Source: Paeniglutamicibacter sulfureus
GTDB lineage: Bacteria > Actinomycetota > Actinomycetes > Actinomycetales > Micrococcaceae
Assembly (NCBI RefSeq): GCF_039535115.1
Contig: NZ_BAAAWO010000001.1
Coordinates: 558,001-622,000, forward strand
Length of the DNA: 64,000 nucleotides
Reading direction: 5' to 3'
Below are positions 12,556-20,707 of the stretch, piece by piece; position 1 is the stretch's first letter; each line of letters begins with the position of its first letter. Both the position numbers and the translations under genes were made by a program. The notes beneath the pieces were generated by a model that saw nothing but the letters and a program-made list of their open reading frames with translations, was not told the origin of the DNA and searched no databases.

Positions 12556-13746
12556 ATGGACGCCTCCCAGCCACCCCCCAATCCGCAGCGGCCCACCCGC
12601 ACCGGCGGTTGGATGGGGCGGCTCTGGAAGCAGCGCGTTGCGGATCCCGCCCACCGTGCCCGCCCCGCCCGGGGCCTGGTTCCGGTGGGCGTGGTCAGCG
12701 ACTCCGCCGCGGCGCTGCCGGAGGACTGGGTGCGGCAGCACGCGCGCTTCCTGCGCGTGGTGCCCATGCCGGTGATGGTCGACGAGCAGATCTTCTCCGA
12801 GGGCACCGACGATGTGCCCACCGAACTGGCCCTGGGCCTGGCGATGGGCAAGGCGGTGCGCACCTCGCGCCCGGCGCCGGGACAGATGCTGCGCGCCTAC
12901 CGGGAACTCGCCGATGCCGGGGTGAAGGAAATCATTTCCATCCACCTCTCCTCGGCGCTCTCCGGGACGGTGGACGCCGCACGCCTGGCGGCCGAGTCCT
13001 CGCCGGTACCCGTCACCGTCGTCGATTCACTCACCGTGGCCCTGGCAGAGGGCTTCACGGTGATGGACGTCGTGGAACTTGCCGCCGCGGGTGCGCCGCT
13101 GGCCGAGCTTGAGGCAGTGGCCAACCGCGCCGCCGAAAACCACGTGTACTTCGCCGTCCCCTCACTGGAGCAGCTGCGCCGCGGCGGGCGCATCGGCACC
13201 CTGGCCTCGGTGCTGGGCACGCTGCTGAACGTCAAGCCGATCCTTTCGGTGCGCGACGGGCAGATCGTCGCCCACGAAAAGGTGCGCACGCATTCGCGCA
13301 CGCTGGCCCGACTGGTGGCCATTGCCCGCGACGAGGCGGCCGCCCGGGGGCCCGAAGCGCGCCTGGCGGTGCACTACTTCGGGAACCAGGACGCCGCCGA
13401 GGAGATCGTGCAGGAACTGGCCGGGGCCTCGCTGTTGGAAGTGCTGGCGGTCCCGGTCCCCGCAGTGCTTGGCGCCCACACCGGGGCCGGCGTGCTGGCC
13501 GTGGCGATTTCCGGAGGCATCGCACCCCCGGTGCCCGGACCTGTACGGCACGAACCCAAGACAAAAGCGGAACCGAAACCAAGGCCCGAACCAAAAGCGA
13601 AACCGGTGGCTAGGCCCCGCAACATTGAGCCGCGTCGGGAATCGCGCCGCCGCACAGCCTCGCCCTCGGCCCAGGGTACGCCCGTCACGCCAACCTCGGC
13701 GTCACCGGACGAGCCGGCCAATCCCGAGGCTTCCGGAACCCCTTAG
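12556..13746 (+). CDS. DegV family fatty-acid-binding protein
   Basis: DegV/FakB-like proteins bind a fatty acid in a two-domain fold; in some bacteria they present it to a fatty acid kinase. The core (about residues 40-330) shows VGVVSDSAAALP, HLSSALSGTVDAAR, LEQLRRGGRIG and GAHTGAGVLAVAI, all family landmarks. The last ~65 residues form a Lys/Pro/Arg-rich low-complexity tail, not part of the fold. The 396 residues exceed the usual ~280 because of this tail and an N-terminal extension. No fatty acid kinase gene lies in the window. Its 3' end is partly duplicated 3.2 kb downstream in front of comEC. Confidence 0.88.
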   Translation: MDASQPPPNPQRPTRTGGWMGRLWKQRVADPAHRARPARGLVPVGVVSDSAAALPEDWVRQHARFLRVVPMPVMVDEQIFSEGTDDVPTELALGLAMGKAVRTSRPAPGQMLRAYRELADAGVKEIISIHLSSALSGTVDAARLAAESSPVPVTVVDSLTVALAEGFTVMDVVELAAAGAPLAELEAVANRAAENHVYFAVPSLEQLRRGGRIGTLASVLGTLLNVKPILSVRDGQIVAHEKVRTHSRTLARLVAIARDEAAARGPEARLAVHYFGNQDAAEEIVQELAGASLLEVLAVPVPAVLGAHTGAGVLAVAISGGIAPPVPGPVRHEPKTKAEPKPRPEPKAKPVARPRNIEPRRESRRRTASPSAQGTPVTPTSASPDEPANPEASGTP

Positions 13747-13870
13747 CGCATTCCCCGCCTCAGACCTTTGGCTGTCGCGGGCCGTGGTTCTCCACAACCC
13801 GGCGGTTCCCGTCCCGCACGGCACCGGGGGTCGTGTGCACTGGAGGACATGGGCTCTCACGAGTGGGTGG
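13708..13870 (+). repeat. Copy A of degV-3'/comEA-5' duplicated segment
   Basis: This stretch (end of degV, intergenic region and first codons of comEA) aligns over about 160 bp with 16949-17110 in front of comEC. Shared landmarks in both copies are the coding of PANP..GT at the end of degV, TTCTCCACA exactly 61 nt before the ATG (13788 here), CGTGTGCACTGGAGG immediately before the ATG, and MGS...DH as the first coded residues. Confidence 0.7.
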
Positions 13871-14631
13871 ATCATGCCGAACGGAGCAACCTGGCTCCGG
13901 TCCCGGGCCGCCTGCGCGTGCTCATTGGCAGGTCCGCCGCGATTGTCCTGATCCTCGGAGCCCTGACCTGGATCTCGGTGTCGTTGCTGTTCAACCCGCC
14001 GCCGCGTGCTCCAAGCGGTGCCGAGTCCATCCCCTTGGAAGTGGCGGAGAGCGGCCACACGGATCCCGCGGCGGAGCCGGGTGCCCAAGATCCGCCACCG
14101 GAACCGGGGGAGACCCCGGAGACGGAGCAAAGACCTCCGAAACCGGGCACCACCGGCCCGCCGGGAAGCGGTGCGAGCGCCGTGGTCCACTTGGTTGGAG
14201 CCGTGAAGAAACCCGGGGTGTACTCCCTGCCGCTGGGATCCAGGGTGCTTGACGCGGTGGATCTGGCCGGCGGGCTGGCGAAGGATGCCGCTCCGGAGGC
14301 GATCAACTTGGCGGCACAGATCCGTGATGGCGAACAAATCCGCATCCCGCGCCGTGGCGAGACCGGGCAGGTTCCGGTGCCCGGGGTTCTGGATTCCGGC
14401 CGTTCGGAGGGTGCGGGTGGGCCAGGCGCGCCGCCGGGGAAAATCAATGTGAACACCGCGGAGCAGGCGCAATTGGAGGAGCTGCCGGGCATCGGTCCCT
14501 CGCTGGCGGGCAGGATCCTGGAATTCCGTCAGGCCAACGGGCCTTTCAAGAACCTCGGGGAACTTGATGCCGTCAGCGGCATTGGCCCGGCGCTGCTGGG
14601 CAACCTGCGCGAACGCGTGGTCTTTGAATGA
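13849..14631 (+). CDS. comEA: ComEA family DNA-binding competence protein
   Basis: Membrane-anchored receptor that binds incoming double-stranded DNA during natural transformation. The 260 residues contain a short cytoplasmic N-terminus, one membrane helix (about 29-47) and a Pro/Glu-rich linker. An SLBB domain (about 112-168, VVHLVGAVKKPGVYSLPLG) and a C-terminal double helix-hairpin-helix follow (KINVNTAEQAQLEELPGIG and DAVSGIGPALLGNLRER). ATG 13849 is preceded by GGAGG only 2 nt away, unusually close, yet the same arrangement is repeated at comEC. In most relatives comEC follows directly; here a comEC fragment and a Fic gene intervene. Confidence 0.9.
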   Translation: MGSHEWVDHAERSNLAPVPGRLRVLIGRSAAIVLILGALTWISVSLLFNPPPRAPSGAESIPLEVAESGHTDPAAEPGAQDPPPEPGETPETEQRPPKPGTTGPPGSGASAVVHLVGAVKKPGVYSLPLGSRVLDAVDLAGGLAKDAAPEAINLAAQIRDGEQIRIPRRGETGQVPVPGVLDSGRSEGAGGPGAPPGKINVNTAEQAQLEELPGIGPSLAGRILEFRQANGPFKNLGELDAVSGIGPALLGNLRERVVFE

Positions 14632-15154
14632 GTTTCCCGGGCCGTGGCCGTGTCGGAGGCGGGGTCACCGGGCTGCTTGGTCACTGAAGGACGGCCGGAA
14701 GGGGATGCCCGCCCTTGGCTCCGGCACAGCCGGGAAGTTGGGGGCCTGCGTTCCCTTGGTCTGCCTGGCCAGGAAGTCCAACAACTCCCTTCTGTGGCCA
14801 GGAGTTGCCCACAGGGGGCCTTCGTGCGGCAGCCGGGGAATTCGACCTTACGGAGCGCGCGCTCGTCACGCACTGTCTGGGCACGTGGTGCACCGACGGC
14901 CGTCCACCACGCATAGTGACCGTGGCCTTGACGGTGTTGGCCGGAAATTTCGCGCTCAAGCGCAGAGGGTGCCCAGCGTGCAGGCAACCCGTTGGAGCTT
15001 GTCGCTCGTGGACGGCGGGCGAGCGGAAGGCTTCCCTCAACGCGTCGGGCCGGGCGGCCCATGTTCGGCGGACCGGCAACTCATGGCCTGTCGCAATGCG
15101 GCCGAGGCGATCGGTGCAACGAATCGAGTGGCGGACAATATCTAAGTCCGGCAC
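14632..15154 (+). other. Non-coding stretch after comEA
   Basis: About 520 bp without a recognisable gene. Open frames on both strands have no domain-like pattern. It is likely decayed DNA linked to the rearrangement of the com locus, but no homology to neighbouring genes could be seen by eye. Confidence 0.4.
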
Positions 15155-15343
15155 GTGTCAAGCATGGCGGATGCTTTACGCGCCCGAATGGCCCGGCGGC
15201 CGAAAGCGGAGCCGGATACCGAGCCCGGTCGGGTCGATCTCCGCGAGTGCTGGGCGTTGGCCGGTGTCTGAGTTGCGGCACTGGGAGGATTGCAGCTGCA
15301 CCAAGTGTTCTGTGCGGTGGGTGTGTGGCTGTTTCGGCTTTGA
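15155..15343 (+). pseudogene. Decayed 5' fragment of a second comEC copy
   Basis: One frame from GTG 15155 encodes MADALRARMARR followed by EPGRVDLRECWALAGV, a TGA stop (15269-15271), VAALGGLQLHQVF and AVGVWL, ending at TGA 15341. The intact ComEC reads LADLMHAALSRR, EPGRVDLRGCWALAGA, VAALGGVQLGQLHQVF and AVGLWL in the same order. The TGA replaces the TGG for Trp, and three residues are deleted. Similarity stops near 15335, just before the Fic promoter. It is therefore a truncated comEC remnant directly downstream of comEA, the position normally held by comEC. Confidence 0.8.
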
Positions 15344-15363
15344 TAACGTTGTCAAGCGTCGTC

Positions 15364-15405
15364 CATACCAAAGGCTAAATGCATAGCCTTTGGTATGTTT
15401 GGATG
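15364..15405 (+). promoter_or_regulatory. Promoter and palindromic operator of the Fic gene
   Basis: A perfect 14-bp inverted repeat (15364-15377 and 15384-15397) with a 6-nt centre overlaps the -10 hexamer TATGTT (15394-15399). That hexamer ends 6 nt before GTG 15406. Such a site could bind a dimeric repressor; the winged-helix-like C-terminus of the Fic protein is one candidate (inference). Confidence 0.6.
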
Positions 15406-16608
15406 GTGACCATAGATAAGCAGCAGTCCGGCGTCTGGCCGGCGACCGGATACGAAGCACGCCCGTGGGTGCGCGCCGGGAACGAAGTCGCCTCACGTAG
15501 GGCCAAGCTCCAGGCCCGCGGCGACTACCGGGCCGCCGTCCCGCCGCTCATCGCTGCAGCACCGGTTGCTCTGCCCGCCGAGGTGATCGCCCTGGCCGAT
15601 GATGCGAGCCAGGAACTCGCCCGATTCGACGCCGAGGCCGGAACGATGGCCGCCCCGTTCGCATCCATCCTGCTGCGAAGCGAGTCTGCTTCCAGCTCGG
15701 AAGTGGAGAACCTCACCTCCAGCGCCAAGCAGGTGGCCCTCGCGGAGATCGGTGAGTCGAAGTCCGGGAACGCGCGCTTGGTCGTCGCAAACGTTCGCGC
15801 CATGACCGCGGCCATCGCGCTGTCCGACCATTTGGATGAGCACTCGATCATCGCGATGCACGATGCGTTGCTGCGGGACACTGCGCCCGAATATGTCGGT
15901 TATTGGCGCAACGAACAGGTATGGATCGGCGGCGGCAGCATTTCGCCGCACGCCGCAGCGTTTGTGCCGCCCCACCACACCCGCGTTTCCAGCCTGATGG
16001 CCGACGTTGTCGCATTCGCCCGGCGCACGGACGTGCCGGTGCTCATCCAGGCGGCGATTGCGCACGCGCAATTCGAGACCATCCATCCCTTCCCCGACGG
16101 CAATGGCCGGACCGGACGGGCACTCCTGCAGGGCATGCTCCGCCACGGCGGCCTGACCCGCAATGTCACCGTGCCCGTCTCGGCCGGGCTCCTCTACGAC
16201 ACGGATGCCTACTTCCGAGCGCTGACCGAGTATCGGGCCGGGAACACAAGCGCCATCGTCACCGCCGTGGCGGAGGCATCCTTTGCCGCGATCCGGAACG
16301 GCCGTGTACTCGTGAGAGACATCCAAGACGCAGCTGCGCGCTGGGACGACTTGATCATGGCCCGAAGCGACTCATCCGTGCACAAGGCGAAGAGCTACCT
16401 GCTCCGCCAACCCGTGGTGAACGCAAAGACCCTGGCCGGTGAGTTGCAGATCAGCGACGTCGCGGCCCAGAAAGCCATCGACCGGCTGGTCGACGCCGAG
16501 GTGCTCACTCAGACCAACACCGGCCGCAGGAACCGTGTCTGGCAGGCGCCGGAGATCCTCGCCGCACTCGATGCGTTCGGCGCACGGGCCAGGCGCCGTC
16601 GCGGCTGA
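15406..16608 (+). CDS. Fic family protein (predicted AMP transferase) with C-terminal winged helix
   Basis: Fic enzymes usually transfer AMP from ATP to a protein hydroxyl. The canonical active-site loop HPFPDGNGR lies at about residues 227-235. An inhibitory motif of the [S/T]xxxE[G/N] type (SSEVEN, about 97-102) lies N-terminal to it, placing the protein in the class with an N-terminal autoinhibitory helix. The C-terminal ~75 residues look like a winged helix (LAGELQISDVAAQKAIDRLVDAEVL). GTG 15406 fits the -10 spacing; ATG 15403 or 15379 are alternatives. It stands alone, with no antitoxin ORF adjacent, inside the disrupted comEA-comEC interval. The target is unknown. Confidence 0.88.
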   Translation: MTIDKQQSGVWPATGYEARPWVRAGNEVASRRAKLQARGDYRAAVPPLIAAAPVALPAEVIALADDASQELARFDAEAGTMAAPFASILLRSESASSSEVENLTSSAKQVALAEIGESKSGNARLVVANVRAMTAAIALSDHLDEHSIIAMHDALLRDTAPEYVGYWRNEQVWIGGGSISPHAAAFVPPHHTRVSSLMADVVAFARRTDVPVLIQAAIAHAQFETIHPFPDGNGRTGRALLQGMLRHGGLTRNVTVPVSAGLLYDTDAYFRALTEYRAGNTSAIVTAVAEASFAAIRNGRVLVRDIQDAAARWDDLIMARSDSSVHKAKSYLLRQPVVNAKTLAGELQISDVAAQKAIDRLVDAEVLTQTNTGRRNRVWQAPEILAALDAFGARARRRRG

Positions 16609-16948
16609 GAGTCGCAAAGCCCGATGTTCGACACTCGCAGAAAGATCTAGACATGCCCTTATCTGCCAGTTATCTCGGGGAACACATTGAGTCCTGGAGC
16701 ATGGGAACCGAAGCGTGGGCCGCGCCTAGGCGCATCTACCGCACATCGGGGCCAACCTTGGCCCGTGTCCGAACTGGTGTCCCGACGCGGAAGCCCCGGG
16801 GGCAGTGCCGAAGAAGCCCTGGAGGCCGACTGCGGACTCTGCTTCGATGAGCCGACCGCCTGGATCTGAACCACCGATGAACCTGGGCTACGACCAACAG
16901 GCATTTTTTCCTTAAGTTGCTGACGCCCGGCAGAATCACCTGAATCGC
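16609..16948 (+). other. Non-coding stretch after the Fic gene
   Basis: About 340 bp with no recognisable gene or clear terminator. Only short frames without family features occur. An AT-rich patch (TTTTTTCC near 16906) precedes the duplicated degV/comEA segment. Confidence 0.4.
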
Positions 16949-17110
16949 CCATCGGACCGGCCAACCCCGGGAGTGCGGGAACCGGTCGGCGCCCCTCTTC
17001 TCGTTCTCCGGATCATCGGGCGTGTTTCTCCACAGTCGGGCGCCGACGCTGAATGCACGGCAGCGGAAACGTGTGCACTGGAGGGCATGGGTTCCTACGC
17101 GCGGCGTGAT
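16949..17110 (+). repeat. Copy B of degV-3'/comEA-5' duplicated segment
   Basis: Diverged copy of 13708-13870 now placed before comEC. TTCTCCACA is at 17026, again exactly 61 nt before the ATG (17087), and CGTGTGCACTGGAGG precedes the ATG. Upstream codons read P-A-N-P-G-S-A-G-T like the end of the DegV protein. The copies differ enough that the event is not recent, or the second copy came from another strain. Confidence 0.7.
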
Positions 17111-19645
17111 CACACCTCAGAAAGCAAATGGCACGCGGCACTCGCCATGGGCAGGCTCGCGGACCTGATGCATGCAGCCTTGTCCCGGCGTTCGAAGGGG
17201 GAGTCGGATCTGGAGCCCGGCCGCGTAGACCTGCGCGGGTGCTGGGCGTTGGCCGGGGCGTGGGTGGCGGCGTTGGGCGGGGTGCAGCTGGGCCAGCTGC
17301 ACCAGGTATTTTGGGCAGTCGGTTTGTGGTTGGTGGCCGGTGCAGGTCTTCTGGCGTTGTTGCGCCCGCGGCATGGGCGGCTGGGCCCGGCCGCGACCCC
17401 CAGTTTTGCCGCACCCGCCCTTGGCTGTGCCGCGGCGGCCCTGGTCTTCACGCAATTGTTCTTGTCCGGGGCGGGCACGAACCCTGACTCGCTTGAACAG
17501 GCAGCCCGCGCTGGGACGCCGGTTCGCATCCAGTTGTCGTTCACCGAGGCCCCGCGGGCATCGTTGCAAACTGACAAGTTCTCCGAAGATGCCAGGCCCC
17601 ACCGGCAATTCACCGTCGCCGCGCGTGCTCTGGTGGTCGCCGGCAACGGCAGTTGGCGGATCTCGGGGGTACCGGTGCGGCTCAGCTACCCCGAATCCCG
17701 GGCGCCGGACATTCCACTGGCCGGCGGGAGCACCGTTGAAGTGCTCGCCACGGTCTCGAACAGCGAGCCAGGGGATAGGCAACGCTTCTGGCTCAATGCC
17801 TCCGCCGATCTCCTGCCCCTGGGCAAATCCACGGCGCCGGGCGTTTTCCAAGGCATGCGGGAACGCTTTGTCGGTGCCAGCGACGCACTTCCACAACCCG
17901 CCCGCGCCCTGCTCCCTGGCATGGTGTTTGGTGACCGCAGCGGGGCGGACGAGGAATTGTCGGAAGCGATGAAGGTTGCCGGACTGTCCCACCTCAGTGC
18001 TGTCAGCGGGGCAAACTGTGCGATGGTGCTTGGTTTTGTCATATCCGTCGGCCGTTTGCTGGGATTGGGTCGGCTGCCCACGTTGGGCTTGGGCTTGGCG
18101 GCATTGCTCGGCTTCGTGTTCCTGGTGGGTTACGAACCCAGCGTGTTGCGCGCAGCGGTGATGGGCACCATTGCGGCCGTGGGCCTGCACGCGTCCCGCG
18201 GCAGGAATGCCATGGCGGCCCTGACGCTGGCCGTGGTGGTCCTGCTGGCCATCGATCCGTGGTTGGCCGGTGAGCCGGCGTTCCAACTTTCGGTCCTGGC
18301 CACTGCCGGCATCGTGATCATCGGCAGGCCGATGGCGGCACGGTTGAATCGGTGGGTGCCGTCCATCGTGTCCGATGGAACGGCCATTGCCTTGGCCTCG
18401 CAGATCGCCTGCCTGCCGGTGCTGGTGGCGCTTAGCCCGGCCTTCTCGCTGTACTCGGTGCCGGCAAACCTCCTGGTTTCACCGTTCATTTCCCTCATCA
18501 CGGTGGCAGGGACGCTCGCCGTGGTCGTCCTGATGGTGTTCCCGCTGGCGGGAATGGCGCTGGTGTGGCTCGCCGGCATGCCCACCATGGTGGTGGGCCT
18601 CGTGGGAACGTGGATTGCTGCTCTCCCGGGGGCGCTGCGGCCATGGCCGGTCGGGGTGGCGGGCGTCCTGCTGGCTTGGGGAATTGTCTTGGGAACCCTG
18701 CTTGCCCTGGGCCACGTGCATCCCGCCGCAGGATCCTGGCAATCACGCATGGGGTTGGCGGCGCAGGGCGTGGTGACGGGGTTGCTGCTCGGGCTGCTGC
18801 TGCCGGTCACCGCACTGGTACCGGCACCGGCCGTCGACTGGATGGTGGTGTCCTGCGACGTAGGCCAGGGCGACGGGTTGCTGATCAACGCCGGGGATGC
18901 CGGGGCGGTGGTGGTTGACACGGGCAAAACGGCCGAAGATATCGCCGCCTGCCTGAAGCACATGCGCGTCACGCGGGTCGCTGCCCTGTTCATCACCCAT
19001 CGCCATGCCGACCACGACGGCGGGATTGCAGGGGTCGGCGACCGGCGACCGGTTGACAAGATCTACTACTCGGCTGCTGACGACCCCGCGGATCCGCCAC
19101 ATCTGACCGACTCCCGGGGCAGTCTGGTGACCGCCAGCCAGCTTGGATCGGGGGCGACCGGAGCCGCAGGCCCCGTGGTCTGGAAGGTCCTGGGCCCGAT
19201 CCCGGACGGTGTGTTCACGGGAGAAAACGACGCGTCCCTGGTCGTCCGCTTCGAGATAGAGGCGGACGGTTTGCAGCGGCGCATTTCCATCCTGGCAACC
19301 GGGGACATGGAAGATGAGGCCATGGACCAGCTGATCGACAAGGGGCTGATCGGACACGCCGACATCTTGAAGGTGTCGCACCATGGTGCCGAGAACGGTG
19401 GCGTGCGCACGGCGCCAACCGTCCGTCCGGCTCTGGCATTGATCAGCGTGGGTGCAGACAACACCTATGGGCACCCCTCGGATGAGGCCTTGCAGGCACT
19501 CGAGGAGAACCACGTGGCAGTCTTCCGCACCGACCTGCGGGGCACCATCATCGTTGGCTGGGACGGGAAGTCGCTTCGGGTCTCGTCATTGGGTCCGACA
19601 GCGGAACGGACGTCGACACGGGGACCGTCAAAGGGTGGGGAATGA
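17087..19645 (+). CDS. comEC: ComEC/Rec2 family DNA uptake channel
   Basis: Polytopic membrane protein that moves single-stranded DNA across the membrane in natural transformation. Of the 852 residues, the N-terminal part has two or three membrane helices and a soluble OB-like DUF4131 region. The central competence domain (HLSAVSGANCAMVLGFVI) has many helices. The C-terminal metallo-beta-lactamase-like domain carries HRHADHDGG near residue 637 and VSHHGAENGG. The first residues, MGSYARRDHTSESKW, resemble the start of ComEA (MGSHEWVDHAERSN), not of the ComEC remnant, so the start appears borrowed from a comEA copy. holA follows 63 nt downstream. Confidence 0.93.
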   Translation: MGSYARRDHTSESKWHAALAMGRLADLMHAALSRRSKGESDLEPGRVDLRGCWALAGAWVAALGGVQLGQLHQVFWAVGLWLVAGAGLLALLRPRHGRLGPAATPSFAAPALGCAAAALVFTQLFLSGAGTNPDSLEQAARAGTPVRIQLSFTEAPRASLQTDKFSEDARPHRQFTVAARALVVAGNGSWRISGVPVRLSYPESRAPDIPLAGGSTVEVLATVSNSEPGDRQRFWLNASADLLPLGKSTAPGVFQGMRERFVGASDALPQPARALLPGMVFGDRSGADEELSEAMKVAGLSHLSAVSGANCAMVLGFVISVGRLLGLGRLPTLGLGLAALLGFVFLVGYEPSVLRAAVMGTIAAVGLHASRGRNAMAALTLAVVVLLAIDPWLAGEPAFQLSVLATAGIVIIGRPMAARLNRWVPSIVSDGTAIALASQIACLPVLVALSPAFSLYSVPANLLVSPFISLITVAGTLAVVVLMVFPLAGMALVWLAGMPTMVVGLVGTWIAALPGALRPWPVGVAGVLLAWGIVLGTLLALGHVHPAAGSWQSRMGLAAQGVVTGLLLGLLLPVTALVPAPAVDWMVVSCDVGQGDGLLINAGDAGAVVVDTGKTAEDIAACLKHMRVTRVAALFITHRHADHDGGIAGVGDRRPVDKIYYSAADDPADPPHLTDSRGSLVTASQLGSGATGAAGPVVWKVLGPIPDGVFTGENDASLVVRFEIEADGLQRRISILATGDMEDEAMDQLIDKGLIGHADILKVSHHGAENGGVRTAPTVRPALALISVGADNTYGHPSDEALQALEENHVAVFRTDLRGTIIVGWDGKSLRVSSLGPTAERTSTRGPSKGGE

Positions 19646-19708: not shown

Positions 19709-20707
19709 ATGGCAGCGCCACGAGGCACATCCAAGAATGCGGGCATTTCATGGCGGTCAGTGGCGCCCGCCCCGTTGATCCTGCTGCAGGGCTCCGAGGA
19801 GCTGCTTGCCACCAGGGCCTTCGAAACCGTGCGCAACACCTTGCGCGGGGGTGCCGAGATCGAACTGACCCGCTTTGAAGCCAACAGCTACGAGCGCGGG
19901 GAAATGCTGCTGGCGTCCAGCCCGTCGCTCTTCAGTGAAACCAAGCTCATTGAGGTCCGCGGGCTGGCCACCATGAACGAGGATTTCCTCAACGACACCC
20001 TCGCCTACGCGAAAGCCCCGGCACCTGAGGTCACCTTGATCATGCACCACGGAGGGGGAGTGCGCGGCAAGAAACTGCTTGACGCACTCAAGGCCGCCGG
20101 CGCGGTAGTCGTTGATTGCCAGCCGTTGAAAAAGGACGCGGAAAAGATCGACTTCGTCACCCAGGAGTTTCGGACGGCCAAGCGCAAGCTAAGCGCCGAA
20201 GGCGCACGCGCCCTGGTTGCCGCCCTGGGCAGCGACCTGTCCGAACTGGCCGCAGCCTGCTCACAGCTCCTGCAAGACACCACGGGCGCCATCGACCAGG
20301 ACATGGTGGACAAATACTACGGCGGTCGCGTGGAGGCCACGGGGTTCAAGGTCGCCGATGCCGCGCTGGCCGGTCGGGCGGACATCGCGCTGAGCACGCT
20401 GCGCCACGCCTTGGCCACGGGCACCGATCCGGTGCCGATTGTCGCCACGCTGGCCATGAAGCTGCGCCAAGTCGCGAAGGTCGCGGGGGCGCGCAAATCC
20501 TCCGGTCAACTGGCCAGCGAACTGGGCATGCCGCCCTGGCAGGTCCAGCAGGCCCAGGAGCAAGCTCGGCATTGGAACGTCGATGACCTTGCCCGTTGCA
20601 TCCGGCTGGTGGCAGAGGCGGATTCGCAGGTCAAGGGCGCCTCGCGTGACCCGGAATACGCCGTTGAGCGGGCCGTTACCCAGATTTCGTTGGCGGCGCG
20701 CCGCTAG
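19709..20707 (+). CDS. holA: DNA polymerase III subunit delta
   Basis: Delta is the clamp-loader subunit that opens the beta sliding clamp. The 332-residue protein starts with LILLQGSEELLATRAFETV, the degenerate P-loop region of delta, followed by LIEVRGLATMNE. The C-terminal helical collar contains SELGMPPWQVQQAQEQARHW and DSQVKGASRDPEYAVERAV. ComEC-holA-rpsT is a conserved gene order in many Gram-positive bacteria, which supports the call. ATG 19709 lies 63 nt after comEC. Confidence 0.92.
   Translation: MAAPRGTSKNAGISWRSVAPAPLILLQGSEELLATRAFETVRNTLRGGAEIELTRFEANSYERGEMLLASSPSLFSETKLIEVRGLATMNEDFLNDTLAYAKAPAPEVTLIMHHGGGVRGKKLLDALKAAGAVVVDCQPLKKDAEKIDFVTQEFRTAKRKLSAEGARALVAALGSDLSELAAACSQLLQDTTGAIDQDMVDKYYGGRVEATGFKVADAALAGRADIALSTLRHALATGTDPVPIVATLAMKLRQVAKVAGARKSSGQLASELGMPPWQVQQAQEQARHWNVDDLARCIRLVAEADSQVKGASRDPEYAVERAVTQISLAARR

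Follow-up and report, generated by a model that had tools for sequence, protein, structure and literature searches.

The DNA-uptake gene comEC appears to be a recurrent insertion place in Paeniglutamicibacter, tolerated through one old leader fusion

Introduction

How did comEC of Paeniglutamicibacter sulfureus come to lie behind a fic gene and a second copy of the beginning of comEA, with a decayed piece of comEC on the far side, and how did it stay intact? A first-pass annotation of this locus read its order as degV, comEA, a comEC fragment, fic, a copy of the degV-3'/comEA-5' junction and an intact comEC. It took the fragment and the junction copy for the remains of the two copies of a degV-comEA-comEC unit, arising either from an old duplication or from a foreign segment. 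Here, we compared the locus in 15 Paeniglutamicibacter genomes (G000-G014) and in relatives outside the genus. The window, that is, the whole stretch of 64,000 nucleotides analysed, covers positions 558001-622000 of G000, a genome in a single contig of 4.57 Mb; G013 belongs to the same species. In the open-licence literature, we found no paper on comEC in Paeniglutamicibacter, only unrelated titles on insertion in or duplication of comEC, and nothing naming Arthrobacter in connection with comEA, comEC or natural competence.

Results

Pfam matches and alignments gave the gene order that had been claimed, followed by a holA-like gene on the right flank. The features are, in window coordinates:

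12556..13746, + strand: degV, left flank (Pfam DegV, E 2e-66)
13711..13908, + strand: P, consisting of the degV 3' end, the comEA leader with GTTCTCCACA and GGAGG, and the first 20 comEA codons
13849..14631, + strand: comEA, intact, with SLBB and helix-hairpin-helix domains (Pfam HHH_3, E 1.9e-18; SLBB, E 1.6e-15)
14628..14650, + strand: trace of the old operon comEC start, its ATG overlapping the comEA stop (DNA alignment with G005, side-by-side reading)
15155..15334 (approximate), + strand: psi1, decayed comEC 5' remnant, codons about 1-63 (alignment to comEC; orthologues in G013 and G008)
15340..16616, + strand: Fic cassette common to G000 and G010 (94.2%)
15364..15397, no strand: perfect palindrome at the fic start, 14-bp arms and 6-bp spacer
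15403..16608, + strand: fic, Fic/DOC family protein (Pfam Fic, E 2e-19; Fic_N, E 3.7e-07)
16956..17146 (approximate), + strand: P', second copy of the segment from the degV 3' end through the comEA leader to comEA codon 20, reading in frame into comEC
17087..19645, + strand: comEC with a comEA-like N-terminus, 852 aa (Pfam Competence, E 1.4e-48; Lactamase_B, E 2.3e-08)
18002..18009, + strand: GTCAGCGG inside comEC, codons 286-288, 8 bp, undisturbed in G000
19709..20707, + strand: holA-like gene (DNA polymerase III delta), right flank (Pfam DNA_pol3_delta_C, E 2.2e-16)

The same layout is present in G013, an assembly of 20 contigs, with 98.1% DNA identity over window positions 13632-16905, which makes an assembly artefact unlikely. 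The DNA alignment of G000 with G005, a genome with a plain operon, extends to 14650, and the roughly 20 bp 3' of comEA (14628-14650) are all that remains visible of the operon comEC in the window. For fic, the start may be 15379 (409 aa) or the second in-frame ATG at 15403 (401 aa), and the GGAGG in P resembles a ribosome-binding site. ComEA scored under the cut-off of TIGR01259; ComEC reached 166.3 bits against TIGR00361, under the cut-off of 190.05, and was over the cut-off of TIGR00360.

The significance of the repeats was judged by comparing local alignment scores with those of 300 dinucleotide shuffles. The fragment psi1 is 66% identical in amino acids to codons 4-62 of the comEC 5' end, with a score of 100 (shuffles 19.7 +/- 2.8), and the junction copy scored 56 (shuffles 19.8 +/- 2.6). 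In both cases, 0 of 300 shuffles scored as high. The duplication proposed earlier is real, with complementary loss: comEA was kept in one copy and comEC in the other. For the degV end of the junction copy by itself, the window gives weak evidence, with 4 of 300 shuffles reaching its score. That end is likely genuine, as the P' of G010 can be aligned to the comEA leader of G007 over 172 bp that take in the last degV codons, with the degV stop lost. Segment X, the 145 bp upstream of the G007 P', gave no degV match; the corresponding piece of G010 does reach the degV end.

Because P', with its ATG at 17087, is joined in frame to comEC, it is probably the start region of this gene rather than a dead leftover, and 17087 the start codon. 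In all eight genomes in which comEA and comEC are split, the N-termini are alike and 60 nt separate the P' start codon from comEC codon 1 (extrapolated from codon 3 in G003). This identical in-frame spacing points to a single fusion event behind all eight genes. The P in G000 is of the source type for P'. P' copies aligned best to the G007 leader (scores of 56-136, compared with 29-68 for their own comEA leaders), and only in G007 is the own leader joint best, tied with that of G000. In G011, G014 and G003, the P' scores are low, so that the single origin of P' rests mainly on the fusion spacing. Taken together, the comparisons fit one old fusion, inherited vertically or sideways, and not separate recent local duplications.

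Conservation between the leaders peaks at the box TTCTCCACA and at the start codon region about 45 bp further on. The box is present upstream of comEA in 14 of the 15 genomes, G002 having TTATCCACA instead, and in seven of the eight P' copies, that of G007 reading TTGTCCACA. In G000, the box is GTTCTCCACA, at 13787-13796, about 60 bp upstream of comEA, and it is conserved in the leaders of the other 14 genomes. It differs by one base from TTATCCACA, which we take to be a DnaA box, and may be a control site of competence genes. GTTvTCCACA is absent from both dprA loci of G000.

Seven of the 15 genomes (G005, G006, G012, G001, G004, G009 and G002) have the direct comEA-comEC linkage for which relatives were to be searched, with the overlap of comEA stop and comEC start read as 4 bp; G012 is 88% complete and its comEC ends at a contig end. 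In the other eight (G000, G013, G008, G010, G011, G007, G014 and G003), comEA and comEC are split. The distance from the comEA stop to the P' start codon is 2027-3667 bp in the five fic genomes, 7865 bp in G007, 11883 bp in G014 and 15822 bp in G003. Outside the genus, none of 80 scored genomes is split, and the comEA-comEC gap, extrapolated from partial matches, is estimated at 316 bp at most. This count is drawn from the matches listed (95 rows for comEC and 82 for comEA), with 82 genomes in both, 80 of them with the two genes on one contig and strand and two with the genes on different contigs; it covers these 80 out of 230 genomes of the family that lie outside the genus. From these sequence comparisons, comEC appears to be a place where insertions recur, so far in this genus only, and one old fusion of the leader appears to have made them tolerable.

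The comEC frame is intact in all eight split genomes, and in none of them is the target gene left without an intact copy. Seven comparisons, including one of two plain genomes, gave dN/dS ratios of 0.13-0.22 for comEC, with 0.13-0.20 in the five that involve G000, indicating that the gene is under purifying selection.

Stubs of comEC are kept in five of the eight split genomes, to the left of the cargo with the full comEC to the right, and in these five the new DNA lies between direct repeats of its target, one partial and one full. The stubs cover codons about 1-63 in G000 and G008, codons 4-62 before fic and 178-288 after it in G013, codons 74-287 in G010, and P' with the start, then codons 108-177, in G014. 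G011 and G003 gave no stub, and G007 only 11 bp.

The psi1 of G000 is 98.3% identical in G013 and shows 90.5% DNA identity in G008. Since this G008 orthologue begins with a P'-like start of its own, psi1 of the window is most likely the descendant of a second fused P'-comEC copy, and the G000 locus needs at least two rounds of events. The stub of G010 follows on from the opening eight codons of the operon gene (MSAPHGGR), resumes at codon 74 and breaks off at codon 286-288; it is therefore the resident operon comEC, with blocks that share 95.6%, 96.5% and 84.7% identity with the intact comEC of the same genome. The stub of G014 likewise resembles the intact gene beside it, at 97.5% and 93.2% identity in DNA. 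In G013, which has three comEC copies, psi2 is preceded by the beginning of a P' copy and is closer to the comEC of G008 (84.1%) than to its own (76.0%). The G013 stub ends at GTCAGCGG and the G010 stub at a one-base variant of it, and the tail that follows both also follows GCTGTCAGCGG in the G007 array. A search of the 15 genomes turned up this tail at no locus but these three, except for a weak match in G008 over about 30 bp. With one tail in common, the three junctions may go back to one event.

Several comEC genes are mosaic. The comEC of G010 is G008/G000-like up to about codon 19-27 (break at nt 56-81) and G005-like beyond, and that of G008 is G000/G007-like up to nt 2292-2338 and resident-like beyond. 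The G007 gene resembles that of G006/G010 as far as nt 855 and that of G008 from nt 864 on, the break being GTCAGCGG. Informative sites divide 137 to 42 before this switch and 34 to 276 after it (chi-square 214.5; maximum in 1000 permutations 18.2). The break can be explained by a conversion tract spanning the homology between operon stub and P'-comEC, from the fusion point, with a break at nt 57-90, to the stub end; a site-specific step at GTCAGCGG is possible as well. Between the comEC genes of G013 and G000, no sharp switch was found at codon 288.

Midpoint-rooted FastTree trees were built for leuS (13 of the 15 genomes), holA (14 of 15), comEA, comEC and degV (15 of 15 each). G008 groups with G005/G006/G010 in the leuS (0.883), holA (0.995) and degV (0.932) trees, and with G000/G013/G007 in the comEA (0.996) and comEC (0.977) trees, a conflict which implies that the com block crossed species. 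The comEA-fic-comEC block of G008 comes from a G000/G007-like donor, and psi1 and fic are common to G000 and G008 as one block (95%). Transfer of com segments between species, suggested earlier, is thus borne out by the trees and by the mosaic genes of G008 and G010.

The cargo between comEA and comEC differs among the split genomes: fic in five, a toxin/immunity-like array in G007, catabolic genes in G014 and metabolic genes in G003. The G007 cargo (L160:5041-12840) encodes a 666-aa protein with GHSWG and small lipoprotein-like proteins, together with partial or orphan repeats of both, and looks like a toxin/immunity array. Pfam was silent for five of its ORFs and NCBIfam for three, and among 16 related proteins, those that bear a name are called hypothetical. 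In G014, the cargo comprises genes for a solute-binding protein, a PucR regulator, a permease, dehydrogenases and arginase, and in G003, genes for phosphoketolase, acetate kinase, an ABC1 kinase-like protein and a glycosyltransferase. G011 and G014 are sister species in the comEC, comEA, degV and holA trees, yet carry different cargo. No recombinase or integrase was found by Pfam in 19 cargo ORFs (seven of G014, five of G007 and seven of those of G003), nor is fic one.

In G008, a minus-strand frame between comEA and psi1 (L025:4799-5299) reads like a small membrane protein; it has no counterpart piece in the window. By tblastx, and with G013 left out, the window spacer 14632-15160 clearly matches G008 only, and it matches G013 at the DNA level; the other tblastx matches are short and resemble the background noise of GC-rich DNA.

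The fic gene was a later arrival, as the annotation had it. When G000 is compared with G008 or G010, dS is 0.12-0.18 for fic and 0.31-0.74 for leuS and holA, so that fic moved recently between these lineages. Of the 245 genomes of the family, five from other genera have a Fic that is at least 76% identical in protein sequence, and none of these copies lies near comEC as judged by position. The piece common to these genera is the palindrome plus the ORF, about 1.25 kb long with 69-83% DNA identity, slightly shorter than the piece that G000 and G010 have in common. In a scan of named genomes with Fic, the 80 loci listed were all at most 68% identical to the query.

Discussion

Overall, we favour a history in which DNA was added by homologous recombination within comEC, possibly through transformation, and P' gave the gene its new start; we consider this reading rather probable, though well short of settled. 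An ancestral comEA-comEC operon with its 4-bp overlap would have been duplicated once, and a deletion within one copy would have joined comEC to the degV-3'/comEA leader with the opening 20 codons of comEA. Since such a P'-comEC would have its own start and a putative promoter in P', comEA in front of it would no longer be needed. The fused gene may then have spread within Paeniglutamicibacter. DNA carrying cargo beside part of comEC would enter through homologous recombination in the comEC 5' region, by what may have been a single crossover of the Campbell-like or merodiploid-like kind, for which natural transformation is a plausible route. Cargo would be added and not swapped, leaving a truncated comEC 5' stub on the left, the cargo in the middle and a full P'-comEC on the right. 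For G000, the cargo would be the mobile fic cassette and psi1 the left stub, with comEC whole.

One alternative is that, as in the first of the annotation's two models, degV-comEA-comEC was duplicated in tandem once, locally and long ago, in the G000 lineage; one comEC and one comEA would then have been lost and fic inserted by chance, with nothing recurrent about it. The diverged copies in the window, and trees in which comEA and comEC of G000 group with their kin, speak for it. Against it, eight genomes have the same fusion with different cargos, G013 has three comEC copies, and a single duplication cannot yield a stub that is itself a fused copy, as the P'-like start before the G008 psi1 implies; we therefore think it quite unlikely. 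It is scarcely credible that P' should be a mere conserved regulatory box and ribosome-binding region, alike in comEC and comEA by convergence and without any duplication. The conservation is indeed strongest at the TTCTCCACA box and the start codon region, but P' carries in-frame comEA codons, and in G010 also the degV 3' end with its stop lost; coding stretches from two genes, still arranged as in the original locus, speak against convergence.

A site-specific integrative element that enters at GTCAGCGG and brings P' with comEC codons 1-288, rebuilding the gene, would explain why the stubs of G013 and G010 end at this motif, why GCTGTCAGCGG precedes the same tail in the G007 array, and why the ancestry of the G007 gene changes just there. 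We consider such an element unlikely, since a recombinase family was matched by 0 of the 19 cargo ORFs scanned with Pfam (those of G014 and G007 and part of those of G003), three genomes have stubs that stop at other codons (about 63 in G000 and G008, 177 in G014), the three junctions with one tail may be a single event, and a conversion tract stopping at the end of the stub homology gives the same break in G007. Finally, split and cargo may have arisen once, the rest being allelic replacement between species and decay, without repeated additive entry. The donor-derived block of G008 and the psi1-fic block that it has in common with G000 are of this kind; however, G010 retains a truncated copy of its operon comEC next to a P'-comEC resembling the resident gene past codon 27, and the recent P'-comEC stub of G014 lies across the cargo from the gene that it resembles so closely. 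As an account of all eight loci, we regard this spread as very unlikely.

The annotation named the right kinds of event and is partly supported, but more than one round is needed, and psi1 and P' are not simply the remains of a single pair of degV-comEA-comEC units, given the P'-like start of the G008 orthologue. As to its choice between an old duplication and a foreign segment, the fusion is old and common to eight genomes, and the com block is foreign in G008 and partly in G010, while the comEA and comEC trees do not show it to be foreign in the G000 lineage.

Mobile DNA that breaks competence genes gains protection from replacement by transformation. In PMC4774983 and PMC11472951, mobile elements are described that break comYC, comFA, comK and comM, together with a mefA cassette in comEC, and PMC12955456 reports comEC of Piscirickettsia broken by transposable elements. 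The Paeniglutamicibacter locus is alike in that foreign DNA sits at a competence gene, but here comEC is of full length and under purifying selection. IMEVchUSA3 in dusA and SXT in prfC are integrative elements that rebuild the gene they enter (PMC8409611), with an integrase and a site at the 5' end. All eight split genomes have an in-frame new N-terminus for the target gene, and promoter activity of P' is putative. In contrast to those elements, no recombinase was seen in the 19 cargo ORFs scanned, a 5' stub of up to 288 codons remains, the cargo is not the same from genome to genome, and the new start was copied from comEA next door. As to an attachment site, GTCAGCGG is common to G013, G010 and G007, and the other stubs end elsewhere. 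In pneumococcal transformation, partly homologous DNA that has been taken up can give merodiploids with tandem duplications through unequal exchange; these span about 100-900 kb (PMC3784515), whereas the repeats here are short, decayed and fixed across species.

We tentatively suggest, as a possibility that we hold to be less than even, that comEC might be a self-mending landing place, in which the uptake gene serves as the homology and a portable comEA leader and start preserves the gene through each insertion. If this is true, Fic and toxin/immunity-like cargo could ride on transformation without shutting uptake off, the reverse of the elements that kill competence genes. Within this one genus, the insertions at the uptake gene leave a whole copy and a readable record of stubs, mosaic breakpoints and cargo turnover, on which the idea that cargo may tolerate or require DNA uptake by its host can be tested. 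The competence gene content of G000 comprises comEA, comEC and two DprA-family genes (C1:2548213-2548851 and 779926-780579), both over the Pfam cut-off. The DprA family also occurs in bacteria without a known capacity for transformation, and 11 of the 14 control genomes matched it, so that its presence is weak evidence for competence.

The Fic protein scored 70.6 bits against Pfam Fic (cut-off 24), and its nearest solved chain is 7cb8_A, a Fic/DOC protein of the Fic_N type, with a full-length match (E 5.6e-64). SoFic is more distant, the NCBIfam score of 55.6 bits lying below the cut-off of 550. The translation contains the Fic core motif HPFPDGNGRTGR and, in its N-terminal part, SSEVEN, which may be the inhibitory motif of class II Fic proteins, [ST]xxxE[GN] upstream of the Fic core. 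In contrast to known Fic/DOC proteins with Fic_N, the fic of G000 travels as a single-gene cassette with its own palindrome. The palindrome occurs once in the 4.57-Mb genome and accompanies fic in other genera, being better kept than the ORF in G067 (92% compared with 70%), and is probably an operator.
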